This document shows, one piece after another, positions 13,136 to 29,358 of a stretch of DNA of 33,303 bases (the stretch's first letter is position 1; each line of letters opens with the position of its first letter). The DNA lies in the NCBI GenBank assembly GCA_016934455.1, contig JAFGSX010000304.1, positions 1 to 33,303 of the forward strand, in the 5' to 3' direction. This DNA comes from Deltaproteobacteria bacterium (GTDB taxonomy: Bacteria; Myxococcota; JACRCW01; JAFGSX01). Under the pieces are notes generated by a model, which saw only the letters and a list, made by a program, of their open reading frames with translations, was not told the DNA's origin and ran no database searches. A program made the position numbers and the translations under genes.

Positions 13136-14233
13136 ATGCGAGCTTCATACATCCGCGAGCAACGCGAGCGCTTTGGCCGCCGCGCCGTGGCGGTGCTGCC
13201 GGTCCACTACCCCAAGCCGCTGCTCACGGCGGCTGGCCTGCTCGCGGTCGAGCTGTGGGGACCGCCGGGCCCGCCGCGCGGCTCCGACGCCGGTCGGCTT
13301 CAGCCCTATGTCTGCGCGATCGTGCGCAACGCGCTCGCCTTCATGGCCAGCGGCGGGCTCGCCGCCGTCGACGGGGTGCTGTTCCCGCACACCTGCGACT
13401 CGATCCAGGGGCTGGCCACGCTGGCCCCCGACTTCGGCGGGCTCGACAAGCCGGCGCTGCGCTATCAGCACGCGCGCGGCGAGCGGCGGCCGAGCGCGGT
13501 CGCGTTTTTGGTCGACGAGCTGCGGCTGCTGGCCGATGCTCTCGCGGCGCTGAGCGGCCGCGCCCCCGATGGCGCCGCCATCGACGCCGCGATCGAGCTC
13601 CACCTGCGCATCGACGACCGGCGCCGCGCGCTGCTGCGCGAGCGCCGGCGGCTGCCGCATACGGATCGCGAGCTGTACGCGCTGCTGCGGCGCGGCGAGT
13701 ATCTGTGGCCAGCCGACCACCTGGCGGAGCTGGAGGCGGCCGCGGCGCAGCTCCAGCCGGCGCCGGTGCAGCGCGGCACGCCGATCATGATCACGGGCTA
13801 TGTACCGGAGCCGGCGGCGCTGCTCGACGTCCTGGGCGCGGCCGGAGCGCTCGTCGTCGCCGACGACTACGCGGGTATCGGGCGCCGGTTGTTGCCGCGG
13901 CTGGCGGCGCCGCCTTCCGATCCCTTCGCGCACCTGGCCGAGCTGGCGTTCGTGACGCCGCCCTGTCCCACGCGCGGCGACAGTCAGGCCAGGCGGCTGC
14001 GCCATCTCGACGCGCTGTTCGACCAGGGACAGGCGGCGGGGGTGATCATCCACGTCGTCAAGTTCTGCGAGCCCGAGCTGTTCGACGTGCCGGCCATCCA
14101 CCAGCACTTCGCGGCGCGCGGCGCGCCGGTGCTGGTGATCGAGGGCGAGCTGGAGAGCGAGCTCTCCGGCCAGGCCGCGACCCGGCTCGAGGCCTTCGTC
14201 GAGATGGTGCAGCAGGCGCGGGGGACCGCATGA
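13136..14233 (+). CDS. 2-hydroxyacyl-CoA dehydratase / benzoyl-CoA reductase family subunit (HgdB/BcrC-like)
   Basis: 365 residues from ATG 13136 (a TTG at 13049 is in frame but adds nothing conserved). The sequence follows the D-subunit fold: VAVLPVHYPKPLLTAAGLLA at the start, then three conserved cysteines suited to bind a 4Fe-4S cluster: QPYVC (Cys60), FPHTCDS (Cys87) and VVKFCEPE (Cys311). MITGYVPEP introduces the C-terminal half. In this family two related subunits form a heterodimer that takes a high-energy electron from the activator and reduces an acyl-CoA by a radical mechanism (alpha,beta-dehydration or aromatic ring reduction). ATGA overlap couples it to the next gene. The upstream 220-bp gap (12916-13135) has AT-rich ACTAATAAA at 13090-13098 as a possible promoter part. 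The substrate cannot be told; enzymes of this family are oxygen-sensitive. Confidence 0.85.
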   Translation: MRASYIREQRERFGRRAVAVLPVHYPKPLLTAAGLLAVELWGPPGPPRGSDAGRLQPYVCAIVRNALAFMASGGLAAVDGVLFPHTCDSIQGLATLAPDFGGLDKPALRYQHARGERRPSAVAFLVDELRLLADALAALSGRAPDGAAIDAAIELHLRIDDRRRALLRERRRLPHTDRELYALLRRGEYLWPADHLAELEAAAAQLQPAPVQRGTPIMITGYVPEPAALLDVLGAAGALVVADDYAGIGRRLLPRLAAPPSDPFAHLAELAFVTPPCPTRGDSQARRLRHLDALFDQGQAAGVIIHVVKFCEPELFDVPAIHQHFAARGAPVLVIEGELESELSGQAATRLEAFVEMVQQARGTA

Positions 14234-15549
14234 TCGCGCGCCGGCTCAAGTTCGAGGCGGTGCGGCGCCTGGCCTGGCCGGCGCTGCGCGGATTCAAGAG
14301 CGCCCAGCGCGCGCTGCGGCCGCGGCGCCGCGGCAGCCGCGACAAGAGCCCCTTCGGCCCGCCGCTCGAGGCCAATCGCAGGCTCAAGGAGCTGCTGAGC
14401 GAGCACTACCTGGTCGGCCGCTACGCCGACGGTGCGGTGCCGGTGGCCTGGGTGACCAGCGGCTTCCCGGTCGAGCTGCTGCGGCCGCTCGGGTTTCACG
14501 TCGTCTACCCCGAGAATCACGGCGCGCTGTGCAGCGCGCGCCGGCTGGTCCCGGAGCTGGCCGAGGAGGCCGAGCGCGCCGGCTTCTCGCGCGACCTGTG
14601 CGGCTATGCGCGCGGCGACATCGGCGCCGTGCTCAGCGGCCGGACGCCGGTGGGCCGCCTGCCCCGGCCCGACCTGCTGGGCTGCTGTACCAACATCTGC
14701 CAGACCGTTCTCTACTGGTACCGCGCGCTGGCCGCCCACCTCGACGTGCCGCTGGTCGTCGTCGACACGCCCTTTGTCTACGGCGAGAGCGCGCCGCACC
14801 AGCTCGCCTATGTCCGGGCGCAGCTCGAGGAGCTGGTGGCCGCGGCCGAGCGCGTGACCGGGCGCCGCGCCGAGCGCGCGCGGCTCGAGCGCAGCCTCGA
14901 GCTGGGGCGCCAGGGCAGCCTGCTGTGGGGCGAGTGCCTGCAGCGCGGCCAGCACCGGCCGTCGCCGTGGACGGCCTTTGACGGCTTCTTTCACATGGCG
15001 CCGGTGGTGGCGCTGCGCGGCACCGAGGTCTGCAACTCCTACTACCGCCTGCTGCGCGACGAGCTGGACGACCGCATCCGGCGCGGCATCGGCGGCATCG
15101 TCGACGAGCGCCACCGCCTGCTCTGGGACAACCTGCCGATCTGGTATCAGGTGCGGGCGCTGGCGACGTCGTTTGCCGAGGCCGGCTGCAACTTCGTGTG
15201 CGCCACCTACACCAACGCCTGGGCCGAGTCGGCGCACCACCTCGATCCGGCGCGGCCCTTCGAGTCGGCGGCGCGCGCCTACAGCGAGATCATCCTCAAC
15301 CGCGACCTGCCCAACCGGCTGCGCGTGATGAGGGAGCTGGCGCGGGACTACGGCTGCGACGGCGCGGTGCTGCACAGCGACCGCTCGTGCAAGCCCTACT
15401 CGATCGGCCAGATCGATCTCAAGCGCCGGCTCGGCGACGAGCTCGGGATGCCGGTGCTGATCGTCGACGCCGATCACGCCGATCCGCGCGCTTTCAGCGC
15501 CGAGCAGGTCGACACCCGCATCCAGGCCTTCATCGAGGCACTGCCATGA
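14230..15549 (+). CDS. 2-hydroxyacyl-CoA dehydratase / benzoyl-CoA reductase family subunit (HgdA/BcrB-like)
   Basis: 439 residues. ATG 14230 overlaps the previous stop (ATGA). A basic N-terminal extension (about 40 residues, many Arg) precedes the family region. Conserved features are WVTSGFPVELLRPLGFHVVY, PENHGALCSARR (Cys101), RDLCGYARGDIGA (Cys124), LLGCCTNICQT (Cys152, 153, 157) and, near the end, HSDRSCKPYSIGQ (Cys387), a hallmark of the larger subunit of this family. It is the partner of the preceding gene product; together they should form the catalytic Fe-S heterodimer that binds the CoA thioester. Extra cysteines around 152-157 exceed the three usual ligands, so one may be non-ligand. 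The stop overlaps the ATG of the activator gene, so the three products are probably made in balanced amounts. A cytoplasmic enzyme. Confidence 0.87.
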   Translation: MIARRLKFEAVRRLAWPALRGFKSAQRALRPRRRGSRDKSPFGPPLEANRRLKELLSEHYLVGRYADGAVPVAWVTSGFPVELLRPLGFHVVYPENHGALCSARRLVPELAEEAERAGFSRDLCGYARGDIGAVLSGRTPVGRLPRPDLLGCCTNICQTVLYWYRALAAHLDVPLVVVDTPFVYGESAPHQLAYVRAQLEELVAAAERVTGRRAERARLERSLELGRQGSLLWGECLQRGQHRPSPWTAFDGFFHMAPVVALRGTEVCNSYYRLLRDELDDRIRRGIGGIVDERHRLLWDNLPIWYQVRALATSFAEAGCNFVCATYTNAWAESAHHLDPARPFESAARAYSEIILNRDLPNRLRVMRELARDYGCDGAVLHSDRSCKPYSIGQIDLKRRLGDELGMPVLIVDADHADPRAFSAEQVDTRIQAFIEALP

Positions 15550-16319
15550 ACGAGATCGCCGCCATCGGCATCGACGCCGGAAGCACCACCTGGAAGGCGG
15601 TCGCCGTCGACGCCCGCGGCGCCATCGTCGCCAGCTCGCTCGAGCCGACCCATCCCCGCATCGAGGAGCAGACCGGCCGCGGCCTGGCCGCGCTGCGCGA
15701 GCGAACCGGCGCGAGCGCGAGCGTGCCGGTCGGCGCCACCGGCTACGGCCGAAAGCGGGTGGCCGCCGACCGCGTGCTCACCGAGATCACCTGCCACGCC
15801 GCCGGCGCCTTCGCCCGCCTCGGCCAGCCCGGCGTGCTGATCGACATCGGCGGCCAGGACACCAAGGTGATCCGCATCGGCGAGCGCGGGACGGTGCTCG
15901 ACTTCGCCATGAACGACAAGTGCGCGGCCGGCACCGGCCGTTTTCTCGAGGTCATCCTGGCGCGGCTGCAGGTGCCGCTGGAGGGCGTGGCCGAGCTGGT
16001 GGCCAGCGCGGCGCGACCCGTGGCCGTGTCCAGCACCTGCACGGTGTTTGCCGAGAGCGAGGTGGTATCGCTGGTGGCTCAGGGCGAGCCGCTGGCCGGC
16101 ATCGTAAAAGGGCTGCACGCGGCGCTCGCCAGCCGCGTCGCGGCGCTGGCCGGCCGCCTCGGCCACGAGGTGCCGGTCTTCCTCAGCGGCGGCGTGGCCC
16201 GCAACGGCGCCATGGTGCAGGCGCTGGCCGCCAGCCTCGGTCGGGCGCCGCAGGTGGTGCCCGATCCGCAGCTCGTCGGAGCGCTCGGCGCGGCGCTGGC
16301 CTGTCGCGCGGTGCGGTGA
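15546..16319 (+). CDS. ATP-dependent activator of 2-hydroxyacyl-CoA dehydratase (HgdC/BcrA-D family)
   Basis: 257 residues, the typical length of the homodimeric HgdC-type activator. It shows the ASKHA (acetate/sugar kinase, Hsp70, actin) ATPase signature: IDAGSTTWK (phosphate 1, about 9-17), DIGGQDTK (phosphate 2, about 100-107), and GGVARN near residue 220 for adenosine. Cys126 in NDKCAAGTGRFLE and Cys165 in STCTVFAESE are the two ligands per subunit of the single 4Fe-4S cluster that bridges the dimer. ATP hydrolysis in the dimer lowers the redox potential of the cluster and drives an electron into the dehydratase subunits. Only one activator gene is present, while class I benzoyl-CoA reductases commonly have two (BcrA and BcrD). 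This favours a dehydratase-like or YjiM/YjiL-like system over ring reduction. The electron donor is not encoded here. Confidence 0.93.
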   Translation: MNEIAAIGIDAGSTTWKAVAVDARGAIVASSLEPTHPRIEEQTGRGLAALRERTGASASVPVGATGYGRKRVAADRVLTEITCHAAGAFARLGQPGVLIDIGGQDTKVIRIGERGTVLDFAMNDKCAAGTGRFLEVILARLQVPLEGVAELVASAARPVAVSSTCTVFAESEVVSLVAQGEPLAGIVKGLHAALASRVAALAGRLGHEVPVFLSGGVARNGAMVQALAASLGRAPQVVPDPQLVGALGAALACRAVR

Positions 16320-19389: not shown

Positions 19390-20538
19390 ATGGTCGTGCA
19401 TCGCCCTGCCGTCTGGATCGGCCTGGCCGCGCTGGGCCTGGCTGTCCTGGTCTCCACCGGCCCGCGTCTCTCCGCCGCGCCCGATCCGGCCAGCCAGCCG
19501 GCGCGCAGCGGCCGCGACATCTTCATCGCGGCCTGCGCCTCTTGCCACGGCTGGGACGGCCGCGGCGCCAGCGCCAGCCAGGTCGGCTTCACCGTGCCGC
19601 TGCCCGACTTCACCGACTGCAGCTTCAGCAGCCGCGAGCCGGACGAGGACTGGCTGGCGGTCGCCCACAGCGGCGGCCCCGAGCGCGTCTTTGACCCGAT
19701 GATGCCGGCTTTCGGCGAGGCGTTGACCGTCGATGAGCTGCAGCGGGCTCTCGACCACGCCCGCAGCTTCTGCCGCGACGATGGCTGGCCGCGCGGCGAC
19801 CTGAACTTCCCGCGAGCCATGTTCACCGAGAAGGCCTTTGTCGAGGACGAGGCAGTGCTGACCGGCGATTTCGGGCTCGGTTCGCCCTACCAGCAGAGCC
19901 ACAAGCTGATCTATGAGCAACGCCTGGGTTCGCGCAGCCAGGTCGAGCTGATCGTGCCGTTCGGGCTGCGCCAGATCGCCGCCGATCCGCTCAGTCCGGC
20001 GGCCTGGCAGGGCGGCCTGGGCGACGTCGGCGTCGGCGCCAAGCACGTGCTGCTGCACGGCCTGGGCAGCGGCTCGATCCTGAGCGTGGCGGGCGAGGTG
20101 GTGTTGCCGACCGGCGACCACGACCGCGGCTTTGGCAAGGGCACCTTCGCTCTCGAGCCATTTTTAGCCTACGGGCAGGCGATCCCGCTGCTCGGTTTTG
20201 TGCAGCTACAGGTCGGCAGCGAGCTGCCGCTCGACCAGCGGCGGGCCGAGATCGAGGTCTTCTGGCGCCTCGCCTGCGGCCGCAGCTTTGGCTGGGGGCA
20301 GTGGGGCCGCAGCTTCACGCCCATGATCGAGGTGCTGGGAGCCAGCACGCTGAGCCGCGAATTCGATCCGGACTGGGACGTGGTGCCGCAGCTACAGGTC
20401 AGCCTGAACAGGCGCCAGAACCTGCTGGCCGGCGCCGGGGTGCGGATCCCGGTCGCGCACCAGGAGCCGCGGCCGGTCGAGCTGACGGTCTACCTGCTGT
20501 GGGACTGGTTCGACGGCGGCCTGCTCGAGGGCTGGTGA
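19390..20538 (+). CDS. Cytochrome c fused to a predicted outer-membrane beta-barrel
   Basis: 382 residues. Signal peptide at about 1-30 (cleavage near LSAAPD). Residues about 40-125 are a monoheme cytochrome c domain: CASCH at 49-53 binds the heme, and Met105 in DPMMPAFG is the likely distal ligand. From about 140 to the end there are alternating polar/hydrophobic strands with Gly/aromatic turns (SQVELIVPFGLRQI, GVGAKHVLLHGL, LSVAGEVVLPTGDHDRG, FVQLQVGSELPL, VQLTV-like ends) and a terminal aromatic residue (EGW). This is the pattern of a transporter-type outer-membrane barrel. A heme domain directly fused to a barrel is unusual and suggests electron passage at the outer membrane. The pentaheme cytochrome gene follows after seven bases. 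The heme part is sure; the barrel is a prediction from strand pattern. Confidence 0.8.
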   Translation: MVVHRPAVWIGLAALGLAVLVSTGPRLSAAPDPASQPARSGRDIFIAACASCHGWDGRGASASQVGFTVPLPDFTDCSFSSREPDEDWLAVAHSGGPERVFDPMMPAFGEALTVDELQRALDHARSFCRDDGWPRGDLNFPRAMFTEKAFVEDEAVLTGDFGLGSPYQQSHKLIYEQRLGSRSQVELIVPFGLRQIAADPLSPAAWQGGLGDVGVGAKHVLLHGLGSGSILSVAGEVVLPTGDHDRGFGKGTFALEPFLAYGQAIPLLGFVQLQVGSELPLDQRRAEIEVFWRLACGRSFGWGQWGRSFTPMIEVLGASTLSREFDPDWDVVPQLQVSLNRRQNLLAGAGVRIPVAHQEPRPVELTVYLLWDWFDGGLLEGW

Positions 20539-20545
20539 GGCGACC

Positions 20546-22162
20546 ATGACGACGGGATGGATGAAGGTGGCGCTGCCCGGCGCGCTGCTCGCGGCGGCGC
20601 TGGCTCTGGCCGACGACGATGCGCCCGAGCTGTTCGCGGTCAGCGACCAGTGCCTGGCTTGCCACAACGGGCTGACCGATCGCGCTGGATACGAGGTCTC
20701 GATCGGCTCCGCCTGGCGGCCGACCATGATGGCGCAGTCGGCGCGCGACCCCTACTGGCAGGCCGGTGTCCGGCGCGAGACGCTGGATCTGCCGGCGCTG
20801 CAGGCTGCGATCGAGAACGAGTGCGCCACCTGCCACATGCCGATGGCGCGCGCCGAGCAGCGCTCGGTCGGGCAGCAGCAGCCGATCTTCGCGGCGCTGG
20901 CCGCCGCCCGGGGCCGAGAGCCGGCGCGGCGCGACGCTCTGGCCGTCGACGGCGTGGCTTGCTCTGCCTGCCATCAGATCGAGAACGCCCGGCTCGGCGA
21001 GCCAGCCAGCTTCAATGGTGGTTTCACCGTGGCCGCGCTGTCGCCGCCCGCCGCCCGGGCCGTCTTCGGGCCATTCGACGTCGACACCGGCCGCCAGCGC
21101 GTCATGCGGTCGGCCACTGGATACCGGCCGACCCGGGCTCCGCACGTCCGGAGCAGCGAGCTGTGCGCAACCTGCCACACCCTGTTCACCCATGCGCTCG
21201 GCACCAAGGGCGAAGTTCTGGGCACACTGCCCGAGCAGGTGCCCTACCTCGAGTGGAAGCACAGCGACTATCGCGAGGCGCAGAGCTGCCAGGACTGCCA
21301 CATGCCGGCCGTGGCCGGGCCGTCGCCGATCAGCAGCGTGCTCGGACAGCCGCGCCAGCCGGTGCTGCAGCATCTATTTCGCGGCGCCAATTTTCTGGTG
21401 CCGGTCCTGCTCAACCAGCAGCGCGGCGATCTCGGAGTGACGGCGCCCGCGGCCGAGCTGACTCTGGCGCAGCGCCACGACGTCGAACATCTGCAGTCGA
21501 GCGCCGCCGCGCTGACCGTCCACTGCGGCCCGATCGCCGACGGGGTCCTCACCGCCACGGTCGGCGTCGAGAACCGGGCTGGCCACAAGCTGCCGAGCGC
21601 CTATCCCTCGCGCCGCGCCTGGCTGCACGTCGTGGTGCGCGACGGGTCGGGTGTCGCGGTCTTCGAGTCGGGCGCGCTGACTGCCGACGGAGCCATCGTG
21701 GGCAACGACAACGACAACGACAACGCCGCCTTCGAGCCGCATCATCGCCGGATCGAGACGCCGGATCAGGTGCAGATCTACGAGACGATCATGGGCCGGC
21801 CGGATGGCAGCGTGACCACGGGCTTGCTCTCGGCCACCCAATACCTCAAGGACAACCGGGTGCTGCCGTCTGGTTTTGACAAGGTCACGGCTCCCTCCGA
21901 CGTGGCGGTGCGCGGCGACGCGGCCAATGACCCCGACTTCGAGGGCGGCCGCGATCTGGTGCGCTACGCGGTCGCCGTGGTCAAGTCCGGCGGCCCGTAC
22001 CAGGTGCAGGCCGAGCTCTGGTACCAGCCGATCGGCTACCGCTGGGCGCACAACCTGGCGGCGTACGACGCGGTCGAGACCCGGCGTTTTGTCGCGGCCT
22101 ACCGGGCGTCGTCAGCGGTCTCGGCCGCTCTGGTGACGCGCGCGGTCGCGGATTGCCGCTAG
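20546..22162 (+). CDS. Pentaheme cytochrome c family protein
   Basis: 538 residues. A signal peptide (LAAALALADDD) exports it. Five CxxCH heme sites are visible: CLACH (36-40), CATCH (93-97), CSACH (139-143), CATCH (207-211) and CQDCH (248-252). Residues from about 290 form a heme-free beta-rich domain containing HKLPSAYPSRRAWLHVVVRD, a motif I associate with the C-terminal part of several multiheme c-type cytochromes. An acidic run of alternating Asn and Asp (about residues 389-396) could bind metal. The start is ATG 20546 with GGTGAGG just upstream, overlapping the end of the cytochrome-barrel gene region, so the two are almost certainly co-expressed. It is probably periplasmic or surface-located, carrying electrons to or from the barrel protein. 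The electron donor and acceptor are unknown. Confidence 0.9.
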   Translation: MTTGWMKVALPGALLAAALALADDDAPELFAVSDQCLACHNGLTDRAGYEVSIGSAWRPTMMAQSARDPYWQAGVRRETLDLPALQAAIENECATCHMPMARAEQRSVGQQQPIFAALAAARGREPARRDALAVDGVACSACHQIENARLGEPASFNGGFTVAALSPPAARAVFGPFDVDTGRQRVMRSATGYRPTRAPHVRSSELCATCHTLFTHALGTKGEVLGTLPEQVPYLEWKHSDYREAQSCQDCHMPAVAGPSPISSVLGQPRQPVLQHLFRGANFLVPVLLNQQRGDLGVTAPAAELTLAQRHDVEHLQSSAAALTVHCGPIADGVLTATVGVENRAGHKLPSAYPSRRAWLHVVVRDGSGVAVFESGALTADGAIVGNDNDNDNAAFEPHHRRIETPDQVQIYETIMGRPDGSVTTGLLSATQYLKDNRVLPSGFDKVTAPSDVAVRGDAANDPDFEGGRDLVRYAVAVVKSGGPYQVQAELWYQPIGYRWAHNLAAYDAVETRRFVAAYRASSAVSAALVTRAVADCR

Positions 22163-22258: not shown

Positions 22259-23038
22259 ATGAATCGCGCCGTCGTCATCGCCGCACTGCTGCTCTCGGCA
22301 TCGGCTCTGGCCGTGGCTCTGCTGCGGCCTGCGCTGTTCGGAACAAGCGCGCTGGAGAGCGAGCGCCGGGCCGATGACCAGGCCTCGCCGCGGGGCGCCG
22401 CCGTCGGCTACGACGCCGACGACGCCGAGTCGAGGATGGCGGCGCTGGAGCGCACCGTGGCCAGCCTGGCGCGCCGGATGACGGCCCTGGAGAGCGGTCG
22501 GCCGGCGCAGGCCGGGGCCGGCACCAGGCCGGGCGCGGCCGCCGCGGACGACGCGCTGGCCGCCCTGCGCAGCGACGTCGACGCCCTGCTGACCGGCAGC
22601 GCGATCGACACCGAGGCCGGCCAGAAGCGCTTCCAGCAACTGGTGCGGGTGGCGCAGGACGAGCTGTTTGCCGAGCGCATGCAGGAGCACGAGGCCGAGC
22701 GCGCCCGCGAGCGCGCGGACCGGATCACCCGGCTGGCCGAGGAGGCCAACCTGAGCGCGCAGCAGACGCAGGATCTGACGCGGCTGCTCGACGACGAGCG
22801 CGACCAGCGGCGCGCGCTGCGCGACAACGTGCGCGCCGGCGACCGGCCGCGGGCCGAGGTCTTTGCCGAGTTCCAGGCGATCGAGCAGAAGACCGACGAG
22901 GGCGCCCGCAAGCTGCTCGACGACGACCAGTACACCCGGTACCAGGCCATGCGCCAGGAGGAGCGGCCGCGCGGGCCGTGGGGCGGCCCCAGGGGTTCCG
23001 GCGGCGGGCCTTTTGGCCGTGGCCGCGGCCAGCGCTGA
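22259..23038 (+). CDS. Membrane-anchored coiled-coil envelope protein
   Basis: 259 residues. An N-terminal hydrophobic segment (about 5-27, without a clear cleavage site) would anchor the protein with its bulk outside the cytoplasm. Residues about 55-80 and 120-210 are Ala/Glu/Arg-rich heptad-like helices (RMAALERTVASLARRMTALE; EEANLSAQQTQDLTRLLDDE). The tail is Pro/Gly/Arg-rich (about 232-259, RGPWGGPRGSGGGPFGRGRG). Helical periplasmic proteins of this kind recall Spy/CpxP-like proteins, which buffer unfolded proteins or metals, but the LTxxQ signature is not clearly present. I cannot name the family. It has its own candidate promoter and is followed after 84 bp by a lipoprotein gene. Confidence 0.65.
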   Translation: MNRAVVIAALLLSASALAVALLRPALFGTSALESERRADDQASPRGAAVGYDADDAESRMAALERTVASLARRMTALESGRPAQAGAGTRPGAAAADDALAALRSDVDALLTGSAIDTEAGQKRFQQLVRVAQDELFAERMQEHEAERARERADRITRLAEEANLSAQQTQDLTRLLDDERDQRRALRDNVRAGDRPRAEVFAEFQAIEQKTDEGARKLLDDDQYTRYQAMRQEERPRGPWGGPRGSGGGPFGRGRGQR

Positions 23039-27891: not shown

Positions 27892-29358
27892 ATGAGGCGG
27901 TCACCGATCCTGTTGGCGTCGACGCTGCTGGCGGCCCTGTCCGCGGTCGCCTGCCCGCCCGCGACGCCGACGACCCCCGACGCGGTGGTCTGCGACGGCG
28001 ACGCGCCCGACCTGGTGCGGCCCGACTTCTGGCAGCGGGAGAGCCACTGCCCGGGCGTCGCGCCCGGCTACTCCAGGTTGTTCGACGATCGGGTGCACCG
28101 GTTCGAGATCGCGATCTCGCGCGCCGATCGCGCGGCCACGCTGGAGGACATGGACGAGAAATACAGCGGCGGCAGCAGCAGCGGCGACCTCGACGATTCG
28201 CCCAAGCCGATGTGGGTGCCCGCCACCGTCCGCCTGGGCGAACGGCAGTGGACCCAGGTCGGCATGCGCTACAAGGGCCACTCGTCTCTCAAGGCGGCCT
28301 GGCAGAGCGGCGTGCGCAAGCTCGCCTTCATCCTCGAGTTCGACCACTACGAGGAAGGCCACGCCGAGCTCGCCGACCAGCGCTGCTACGGCTTCAAGAA
28401 GCTGTCGTTCTCCAATGCCTTCAACGACCCGTCGCTGATCCGCGAGAAGCTGGCGAGCGACATCTTCCGCGTCGGCGGCGTGCCGACCGCGCGCACCGCC
28501 TTCGCCGCGGTCTACGTCGACTGGGGTGACGGCTTGACCTACTTCGGGCTCTACACCGTGATCGAGGACCCGTGCGACAAGATGCTAGACACCCAGATCG
28601 GCGACGGCTCGGGCGCGCTCTACAAGCCCTGGGGCGACGCCGCGCGCTGGCTCGGCCTGGAGGAGATCGATCGGGCCGCGCTCGCGCTCTACTTCGAGAC
28701 CTGCTCCAGCCGCGACGAACCCGCCGGCGACGACGTGGCGACAGCGATCGCGGCGCTGCACTCGGATCGCGACCTGCCCGCGATCTGGCGCACCGACCTC
28801 GAGCGGGTGTTCGACGTCGGGGCCTTTCTCCGCGCGCTGGCCATCAACCAGGTCATCATGAACTGGGACAGCTACGGCTGCATGCACCACAACTACTACG
28901 TCTACGCCAATCCGGAGGACGGCGGCCGCTTCCTGTGGTTGCCGTGGGATCTCAACGAGTCGATGCTGCGGCGGACCCAGGCCCGGTGCCCGGAGCCGGG
29001 CTCGGTCATGCTCGACGAGATCGCGCTCGCCGATCCCGCCGATCCGTCTTTGACCGTCGACCACAACTGGCCCCTGATCCGGTTTCTGCTCGCCGACCCG
29101 GTCTATCGCCAGGACTACCGGAGCGAGCTGCGCCGCGCGCTGGATGGCGCGTTCGCCGCCGACGAGGTGGCGGCGCAGATGCAGCGGTGGCACGATCTGG
29201 TCGCGCCCTACGTGGCGGGGCCGATCGCGACCGAGGTCTTCCCCTATACCAACACCACGGTCGACGGCTTCGACGGCTCGCTCACCGCGGGCGCCAACGC
29301 CCTGATCCCGCACCTGGCGGCACGCCACGCGGCGGTCGAGGCGGCGCTGGCGCAGTAG
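27892..29358 (+). CDS. CotH-kinase-family lipoprotein
   Basis: 488 residues from ATG 27892, with GGAG upstream. The signal ends in AVAC (lipid Cys21). The domain follows the CotH pattern: FEIAISRADRAATLEDM, VGMRYKGHSSLKAAW, KLAFILEFDHY, KKLSFSNAFNDPSLIREKLA, then FGLYTVIEDPCDKML, and the core NWDSYGCMHHNYYVYANPED with GRFLWLPWDLNES (about 324-357), which holds the Asp residues taken as metal/ATP-binding in CotH kinases. In Bacillus, CotH phosphorylates spore-coat proteins; in other bacteria the family is seen on exported proteins of unknown target. Here it is lipid-anchored and sits third in an operon with a lectin-like and an FGE-like lipoprotein, which could be its substrates or partners (inference). 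Length is normal and no motif looks broken. Confidence 0.88.
   Translation: MRRSPILLASTLLAALSAVACPPATPTTPDAVVCDGDAPDLVRPDFWQRESHCPGVAPGYSRLFDDRVHRFEIAISRADRAATLEDMDEKYSGGSSSGDLDDSPKPMWVPATVRLGERQWTQVGMRYKGHSSLKAAWQSGVRKLAFILEFDHYEEGHAELADQRCYGFKKLSFSNAFNDPSLIREKLASDIFRVGGVPTARTAFAAVYVDWGDGLTYFGLYTVIEDPCDKMLDTQIGDGSGALYKPWGDAARWLGLEEIDRAALALYFETCSSRDEPAGDDVATAIAALHSDRDLPAIWRTDLERVFDVGAFLRALAINQVIMNWDSYGCMHHNYYVYANPEDGGRFLWLPWDLNESMLRRTQARCPEPGSVMLDEIALADPADPSLTVDHNWPLIRFLLADPVYRQDYRSELRRALDGAFAADEVAAQMQRWHDLVAPYVAGPIATEVFPYTNTTVDGFDGSLTAGANALIPHLAARHAAVEAALAQ

Follow-up and report, generated by a model that had tools for sequence, protein, structure and literature searches.

Two adjacent genes in the window, that is, the whole 33,303-nucleotide stretch of DNA that was analyzed, encode a monoheme cytochrome c domain fused in one polypeptide to a predicted 12-strand outer-membrane barrel, and a pentaheme cytochrome to which the fusion is coupled across genomes. 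Fused cytochrome-porins are already known, but the barrel type and the partner differ here, and the family is set apart from Cyc2. Its recurrence in many bacterial phyla makes an undescribed electron-handling device of the outer membrane probable. We consider it an even call that the pair acts as a two-gene, Cyc2-like redox module of the outer membrane, in which a substrate would meet the heme by way of the barrel and electrons would travel to or from a periplasmic carrier.

Both genes were on the forward strand and, by their open reading frame coordinates, were separated by seven bases. The first (19390–20538) encodes the 382-aa fusion, as recognized by Pfam, alignment, AlphaFold2, and Foldseek, and the second (20546–22162) a 538-aa pentaheme cytochrome, recognized by profiles and model, with a signal-peptide-like N terminus, a C-terminal beta domain, and no lipobox seen. 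GC3 in the coding frame was high in each (0.91 for the fusion and 0.89 for the pentaheme). When the open reading frames were shuffled at constant composition, a CxxCH motif arose in 0.1% of shuffles of the fusion, and five such motifs were reached in 0 of 20,000 shuffles of the pentaheme. Since shuffling almost never yields them, composition does not account for the heme motifs, and chance CxxCH occurrences were ruled out. The window also contained genes in the surroundings of the module. Immediately after the pentaheme gene, 22259–23038 encodes a protein with a signal-like N terminus and no Pfam match that is not conserved beside the module elsewhere. Upstream, 14107–16319 holds a 2-hydroxyacyl-CoA dehydratase/benzoyl-CoA-reductase-type subunit (PF06050, 2e-67) followed by a BadF/BcrA-type ATPase (PF01869, 2.2e-50), which suggests anaerobic chemistry in the source organism. 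Between 16329 and 19081, an AMP-binding acyl-CoA ligase (PF00501, 1e-75) and a PHB-depolymerase-type esterase (PF10503; 18146–19081) were on the minus strand, oriented away from the module, and a CotH-kinase-type protein (PF08757, 2.5e-48) was located at 27892–29358.

The N-terminal part of the fusion begins with a likely Sec signal peptide (residues ~1–29; 19390–19476), assigned by eye in a region of which residues 1–22 had low pLDDT. A class I cytochrome c domain follows at residues 38–128 (19501–19773), delimited by Pfam, alignment, and AlphaFold2, and was matched by Cytochrome_CBB3 at 8.9e-7, above the cut-off. Its heme site, CASCH, occupies residues 49–53 (19534–19548), and the alignment of 81 fusions, assembled as described below, placed a candidate distal ligand at Met105 (19702–19704), within 'MMPAFG'. 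This methionine was invariant (81/81), as were the heme site and many residues of the linker and barrel; every locus encodes exactly one heme per fusion, and the methionine was 51 residues downstream of the heme motif in 69 of the 81 proteins. The conservation pattern points to a cytochrome of the His/Met class I type. Cys77 and Cys128, each conserved in 98% of the aligned fusions, may form a disulfide. Between the cytochrome and the first strand, alignment and model delimit a conserved linker, WPRG-LN-PR--TEKAF-ED-E (19774–19848), that by analogy with the N terminus of COG4313 channels may plug the barrel lumen.

The remainder of the fusion was predicted by AlphaFold2 to form a barrel (model pLDDT 88, pTM 0.85, with pLDDT mostly >90 in the barrel region), helices being confined to residues 41–125 and strands to residues 154–372. 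The barrel domain thus delimited (19849–20505), which AlphaFold2, Foldseek, and PF13557 jointly indicate, runs from the strand at 154–162 to that at 364–372 and is followed by a conserved C-terminal tail with a WFDGG...GW signature and an invariant Trp382 (20506–20535, from the alignment). DSSP returned 13 strand elements, which we read as 12 strands in the model because two neighbors, 205–210 and 214–224, are separated by the invariant Gly211-Asp212 alone and look like a single broken strand. The top Foldseek matches in the PDB were FapF (E 1.4e-9, TM 0.65 by target) and the COG4313 channel Pput2725/4rl8 (8.4e-7, TM 0.60), both types being solved outer-membrane barrels of 12 strands, and it is from these fold matches, rather than from the model coordinates, that closure of the predicted barrel is taken. 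PF13557 matched 45 of the 81 fusions at E<=0.01 (best 2.5e-9), with the window copy scoring 15.2 bits against a Pfam gathering score of 22. A soluble beta-sandwich, named by the first-pass annotation as one example of an outcome that would tell against its proposal, was ruled out by the AlphaFold2 model and the Foldseek matches, and the combination of CASCH, distal methionine, and barrel that it had seen in one polypeptide was borne out. The heme-free, unfused barrels that we found in Myxococcota were distant relatives only.

The five heme sites of the partner, read from the sequence, are CLACH (20651–20665), CATCH (20822–20836), CSACH (20960–20974), CATCH (21164–21178), and CQDCH (21287–21301), and the C-terminal beta domain spans residues 321–537 (21506–22156), with a AGHKLPSAYPSRR signature, according to alignment, profile, and model. 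On this gene too, the sequence and the AlphaFold2 model (pLDDT 92) agreed with what had first been noted. The model matched the Thermochromatium tepidum c552 structure (5ze8; Foldseek E 2.2e-15, TM 0.70 by target, 14% identity over the alignment), which was also the best profile match (1.4e-4), while phmmer against the PDB returned a designed protein as its sole match. The ExtKL equivalog profile NF040886 scored 26.1 bits, far under its curated cut-off of 250. All pentaheme copies uncut by a contig end had five hemes, and in most a lipobox was not seen. Outside the CxxCH motifs, His200, His276, His347, and His399 were conserved and Met62 and Met187 were invariant; with distal ligands assigned from such conserved residues, four histidines and two methionines would suffice for all distal positions, which suggests that no heme site is free. 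More distant pentahemes without a fusion occurred in other Myxococcota, which places the partner in a broader family.

We next considered how widely the pair occurs. Among 146 related genomes there was one other full-length fusion copy (G019, 49% identity), directly downstream of which was a pentaheme gene (55% identity). A scan of GTDB species genomes, using two peptide patterns that divergent or unfused members can escape, recovered 139 stretches encoding a fusion relative, and of these we retained the best 80 loci (42–54% identical and, with few exceptions, full length). Together with the window and the G019 copy, minus one G019 duplicate, these made up the 81-locus set. All of the best 80 of the 139 loci were fused, with one heme each, and came from about ten phyla; the other outcome named against the proposal, homologues in which the two parts are always apart, was thus not observed. 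Record titles and the tree placed the hosts in Acidobacteriota, Aminicenantes, Myxococcota, Gemmatimonadota, Pseudomonadota, Latescibacterota, Rhodothermota, Balneolota, Bacteroidota, Thermodesulfobacteriota, and Planctomycetota, and cultured carriers include Fodinibius sediminis and Rhodohalobacter sulfatireducens. Occurrence of the fused gene in 81 loci of different assemblies rules out an assembly artefact as its source. The fusion tree mixed phyla, which may result from transfer or binning errors. Three copies (L122, L086, and L141) were in bins named Acidimicrobiia and Dehalococcoidia, groups without a Gram-negative outer membrane, and L122 and L141 were on very short branches next to Acidobacteriota and Gammaproteobacteria copies; given these hosts and branches, the bins are probably contaminated.

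The search for the same pair in other genomes, proposed at the outset, found the pentaheme gene in 70 of the 81 loci; in 69 it follows the fusion gene directly on the same strand, and in one (L113) it is divergently oriented. This pairing is not a search artefact, because the scan had queried the fusion only. Furthermore, pairwise divergences of fusion and pentaheme were correlated in a mirror-tree comparison (r 0.81, permutation maximum 0.11), a value that owes something to the common descent of the host genomes. No other neighbor recurred broadly in the 81-locus neighborhoods, and none of the conserved neighbors named a substrate: these comprised just the pair, the replacement described below, and lineage-specific genes.

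The pentaheme was absent from 11 of the 81 loci, nine of which formed one clade (support 97/92). Seven of these nine have an adjacent gene for a secreted cupredoxin-like protein of ~260 aa, which matched the cupredoxin domain of a copper nitrite reductase (profile, 4.9e-5) and in which a CarboxypepD_reg-like domain, below cut-off, followed the cupredoxin-like one. His162, Cys200, and His203 were invariant in all eight aligned proteins and the axial Met position was Thr in two of the eight, so that copper binding, as judged from these residues, is uncertain. The remaining two loci of the clade had a DUF4399-type protein nearby (checked in L123, with a similar sequence in L119). Most simply, the pentaheme would have given way to another soluble electron carrier in a single event, and a swap of carrier for carrier is consistent with a site at which a periplasmic carrier docks. 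In Acidithiobacillus, the cupredoxin rusticyanin is the carrier that acts with Cyc2, a parallel to the replacement seen here.

What follows on the topology of the proposed redox module, on its electron path, and on its substrate and direction is inferred. The predicted COG4313/PF13557-type barrel would hold the putative His/Met class I domain at its periplasmic mouth, where the single heme is expected because it is N-terminal to the barrel and outer-membrane barrels normally have their two termini in the periplasm, as stated for porins (PMC8406198), and the secreted pentaheme of the c552/ExtKL fold would be the periplasmic partner. A small redox-active molecule or ion, for which metal ions, hydrophobic shuttles such as quinones, and oxyanions are candidates, would reach the heme through the barrel; electrons would then pass between this heme and the pentaheme (or, in one clade, the cupredoxin-like protein), and the periplasmic carrier would link to or from the respiratory chain, in either direction. 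Were the linker to plug the lumen as the COG4313 N terminus does, access of the substrate to the heme would be in question. Cytochrome c assembly genes and a cytochrome bd oxidase were present in the source genome, and neither heme-copper oxidase (PF00115) nor MtrB/PioB (PF11854) gave a match in this 82%-complete genome.

The first-pass annotation had instead proposed a compact electron conduit across the outer membrane, from which the fusion of barrel and cytochrome and its coupling to the pentaheme stand. A wire of hemes, however, is unlikely, because one heme lies beside a narrow barrel: in COG4313 channels, which have 12 strands and are plugged by the N terminus, the lumen is ~10–12 Å even when unplugged (PMC4493636). 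The same considerations weigh on a transmembrane conduit of the MtrCAB kind, with the pentaheme outside the cell or in the barrel mouth and electrons crossing the barrel by way of successive hemes. Although the strict pairing with a multiheme cytochrome, the inclusion in the pentaheme fold family of ExtKL, for which a role in extracellular electron transfer has been proposed (PMC11976967), and the ordinary signal peptide of the pentaheme, which leaves further export possible, are all in keeping with such a conduit, the lone heme of the membrane protein, its 12 rather than 26 strands, the general lack of a visible lipobox for surface anchoring, and the ability of a cupredoxin-like protein to stand as partner make it unlikely. 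A conduit of the MtrB/PioB type proper was ruled out by the 12-strand model together with the negative PF11854 search of the source genome.

We assign a similarly low probability to a redox-sensing or redox-gated transporter, in which the barrel would take up a hydrophobic or small substrate and the cytochrome, read by its partner, would gate this uptake or tether that partner at the outer membrane, with no net respiratory flow. The barrel groups with PF13557/COG4313, a family implicated in the uptake of hydrophobic compounds with no redox chemistry involved (PMC4493636), there are the distant unfused, heme-free relatives in the same phylum, and the linker is conserved and may serve as a lumen plug. 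However, a heme site and methionine invariant across the family, alongside a dedicated multiheme or cupredoxin-like partner, suggest electron flow and not a purely structural role, and no catabolic gene was conserved near the fusion loci. Finally, that the pentaheme is itself an enzyme, for instance a reductase of an oxyanion entering via the barrel, with the monoheme as the point of electron entry or exit, would draw on the selenite reduction linked to its weak profile relative ExtKL and the porin ExtI (PMC5877670), but is very improbable given that conserved residues could fill every distal heme position and that the cupredoxin-like protein stands in for the pentaheme in the replacement clade.

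If the redox-module reading is true, many uncultured bacterial groups would bear a small redox-active pore in the outer membrane, of which family models see only the cytochrome c domain. The gene pair would then be a marker for external redox chemistry beyond the known iron bacteria, a second barrel type would be added to the fused cytochrome-porins, and the swap from pentaheme to cupredoxin would be a natural experiment on how such a device couples to the periplasm. The proposal is testable in the cultured carriers. Tentatively, we suggest that the fusions could be a further family of cytochrome-barrels, widespread and independently evolved, whose 12-strand channel trades electrons with a dedicated periplasmic pentaheme from the fold group related to an archaeal cytochrome nanowire (PMC11976967). 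On that reading, the module would open an external redox substrate to many bacteria for which extracellular electron transfer is not known, in Acidobacteriota, Gemmatimonadota, Latescibacterota, and other groups.

We found no description of this fusion in the openly licensed literature, and each known system resembles the module in part. Like MtrAB, MtoAB, and PioAB, it pairs an outer-membrane barrel with a multiheme cytochrome, but those systems use a separate 26-strand barrel with the decaheme inside, as described for MtrAB (PMC8406198). The pentaheme shares five hemes and a C-terminal beta domain with T. tepidum c552, Geobacter ExtKL, and Gsu2801, and its fold group has been connected with ExtKL and, structurally, with a cytochrome nanowire of archaea (PMC11976967). 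In the Geobacter system, unlike here, a heme-free porin, ExtI, is encoded by a gene of its own near ExtKL, the system being associated with the reduction of selenite and tellurite (PMC5877670), and this likeness is offered as a parallel rather than a test. The predicted 12-strand fold and the Pfam matches of part of the family (Phenol_MetA_deg) align the barrel with COG4313/PF13557 channels such as Pput2725, whose described members carry no cytochrome. The initial statement that known conduits use separate barrel and cytochrome proteins was wrong, as both Cyc2 (PMC8406198) and Leptospirillum Cyc572 (PMC10654088) are fusions. Cyc572, with its N-terminal heme motif, is likened to our family by description, not sequence. 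The Fe(II) oxidase Cyc2 likewise has a signal peptide, a single N-terminal CXXCH domain, and a barrel in one polypeptide of ~400 aa; its definition further includes AXPXFAR[Q/K][T/Y] before the heme, PXL downstream of CXXCH, and a predicted 16-strand porin resembling the phosphate porins OprP/OprO (PMC8406198). Neither PxFAR nor PxL was present in any of the 81 fusions, and the absent motif, together with 12 predicted strands of the COG4313/FapF type rather than 16, rules out membership of Cyc2, from which the family also differs in its class I domain with a conserved methionine and in its dedicated, adjacent pentaheme.
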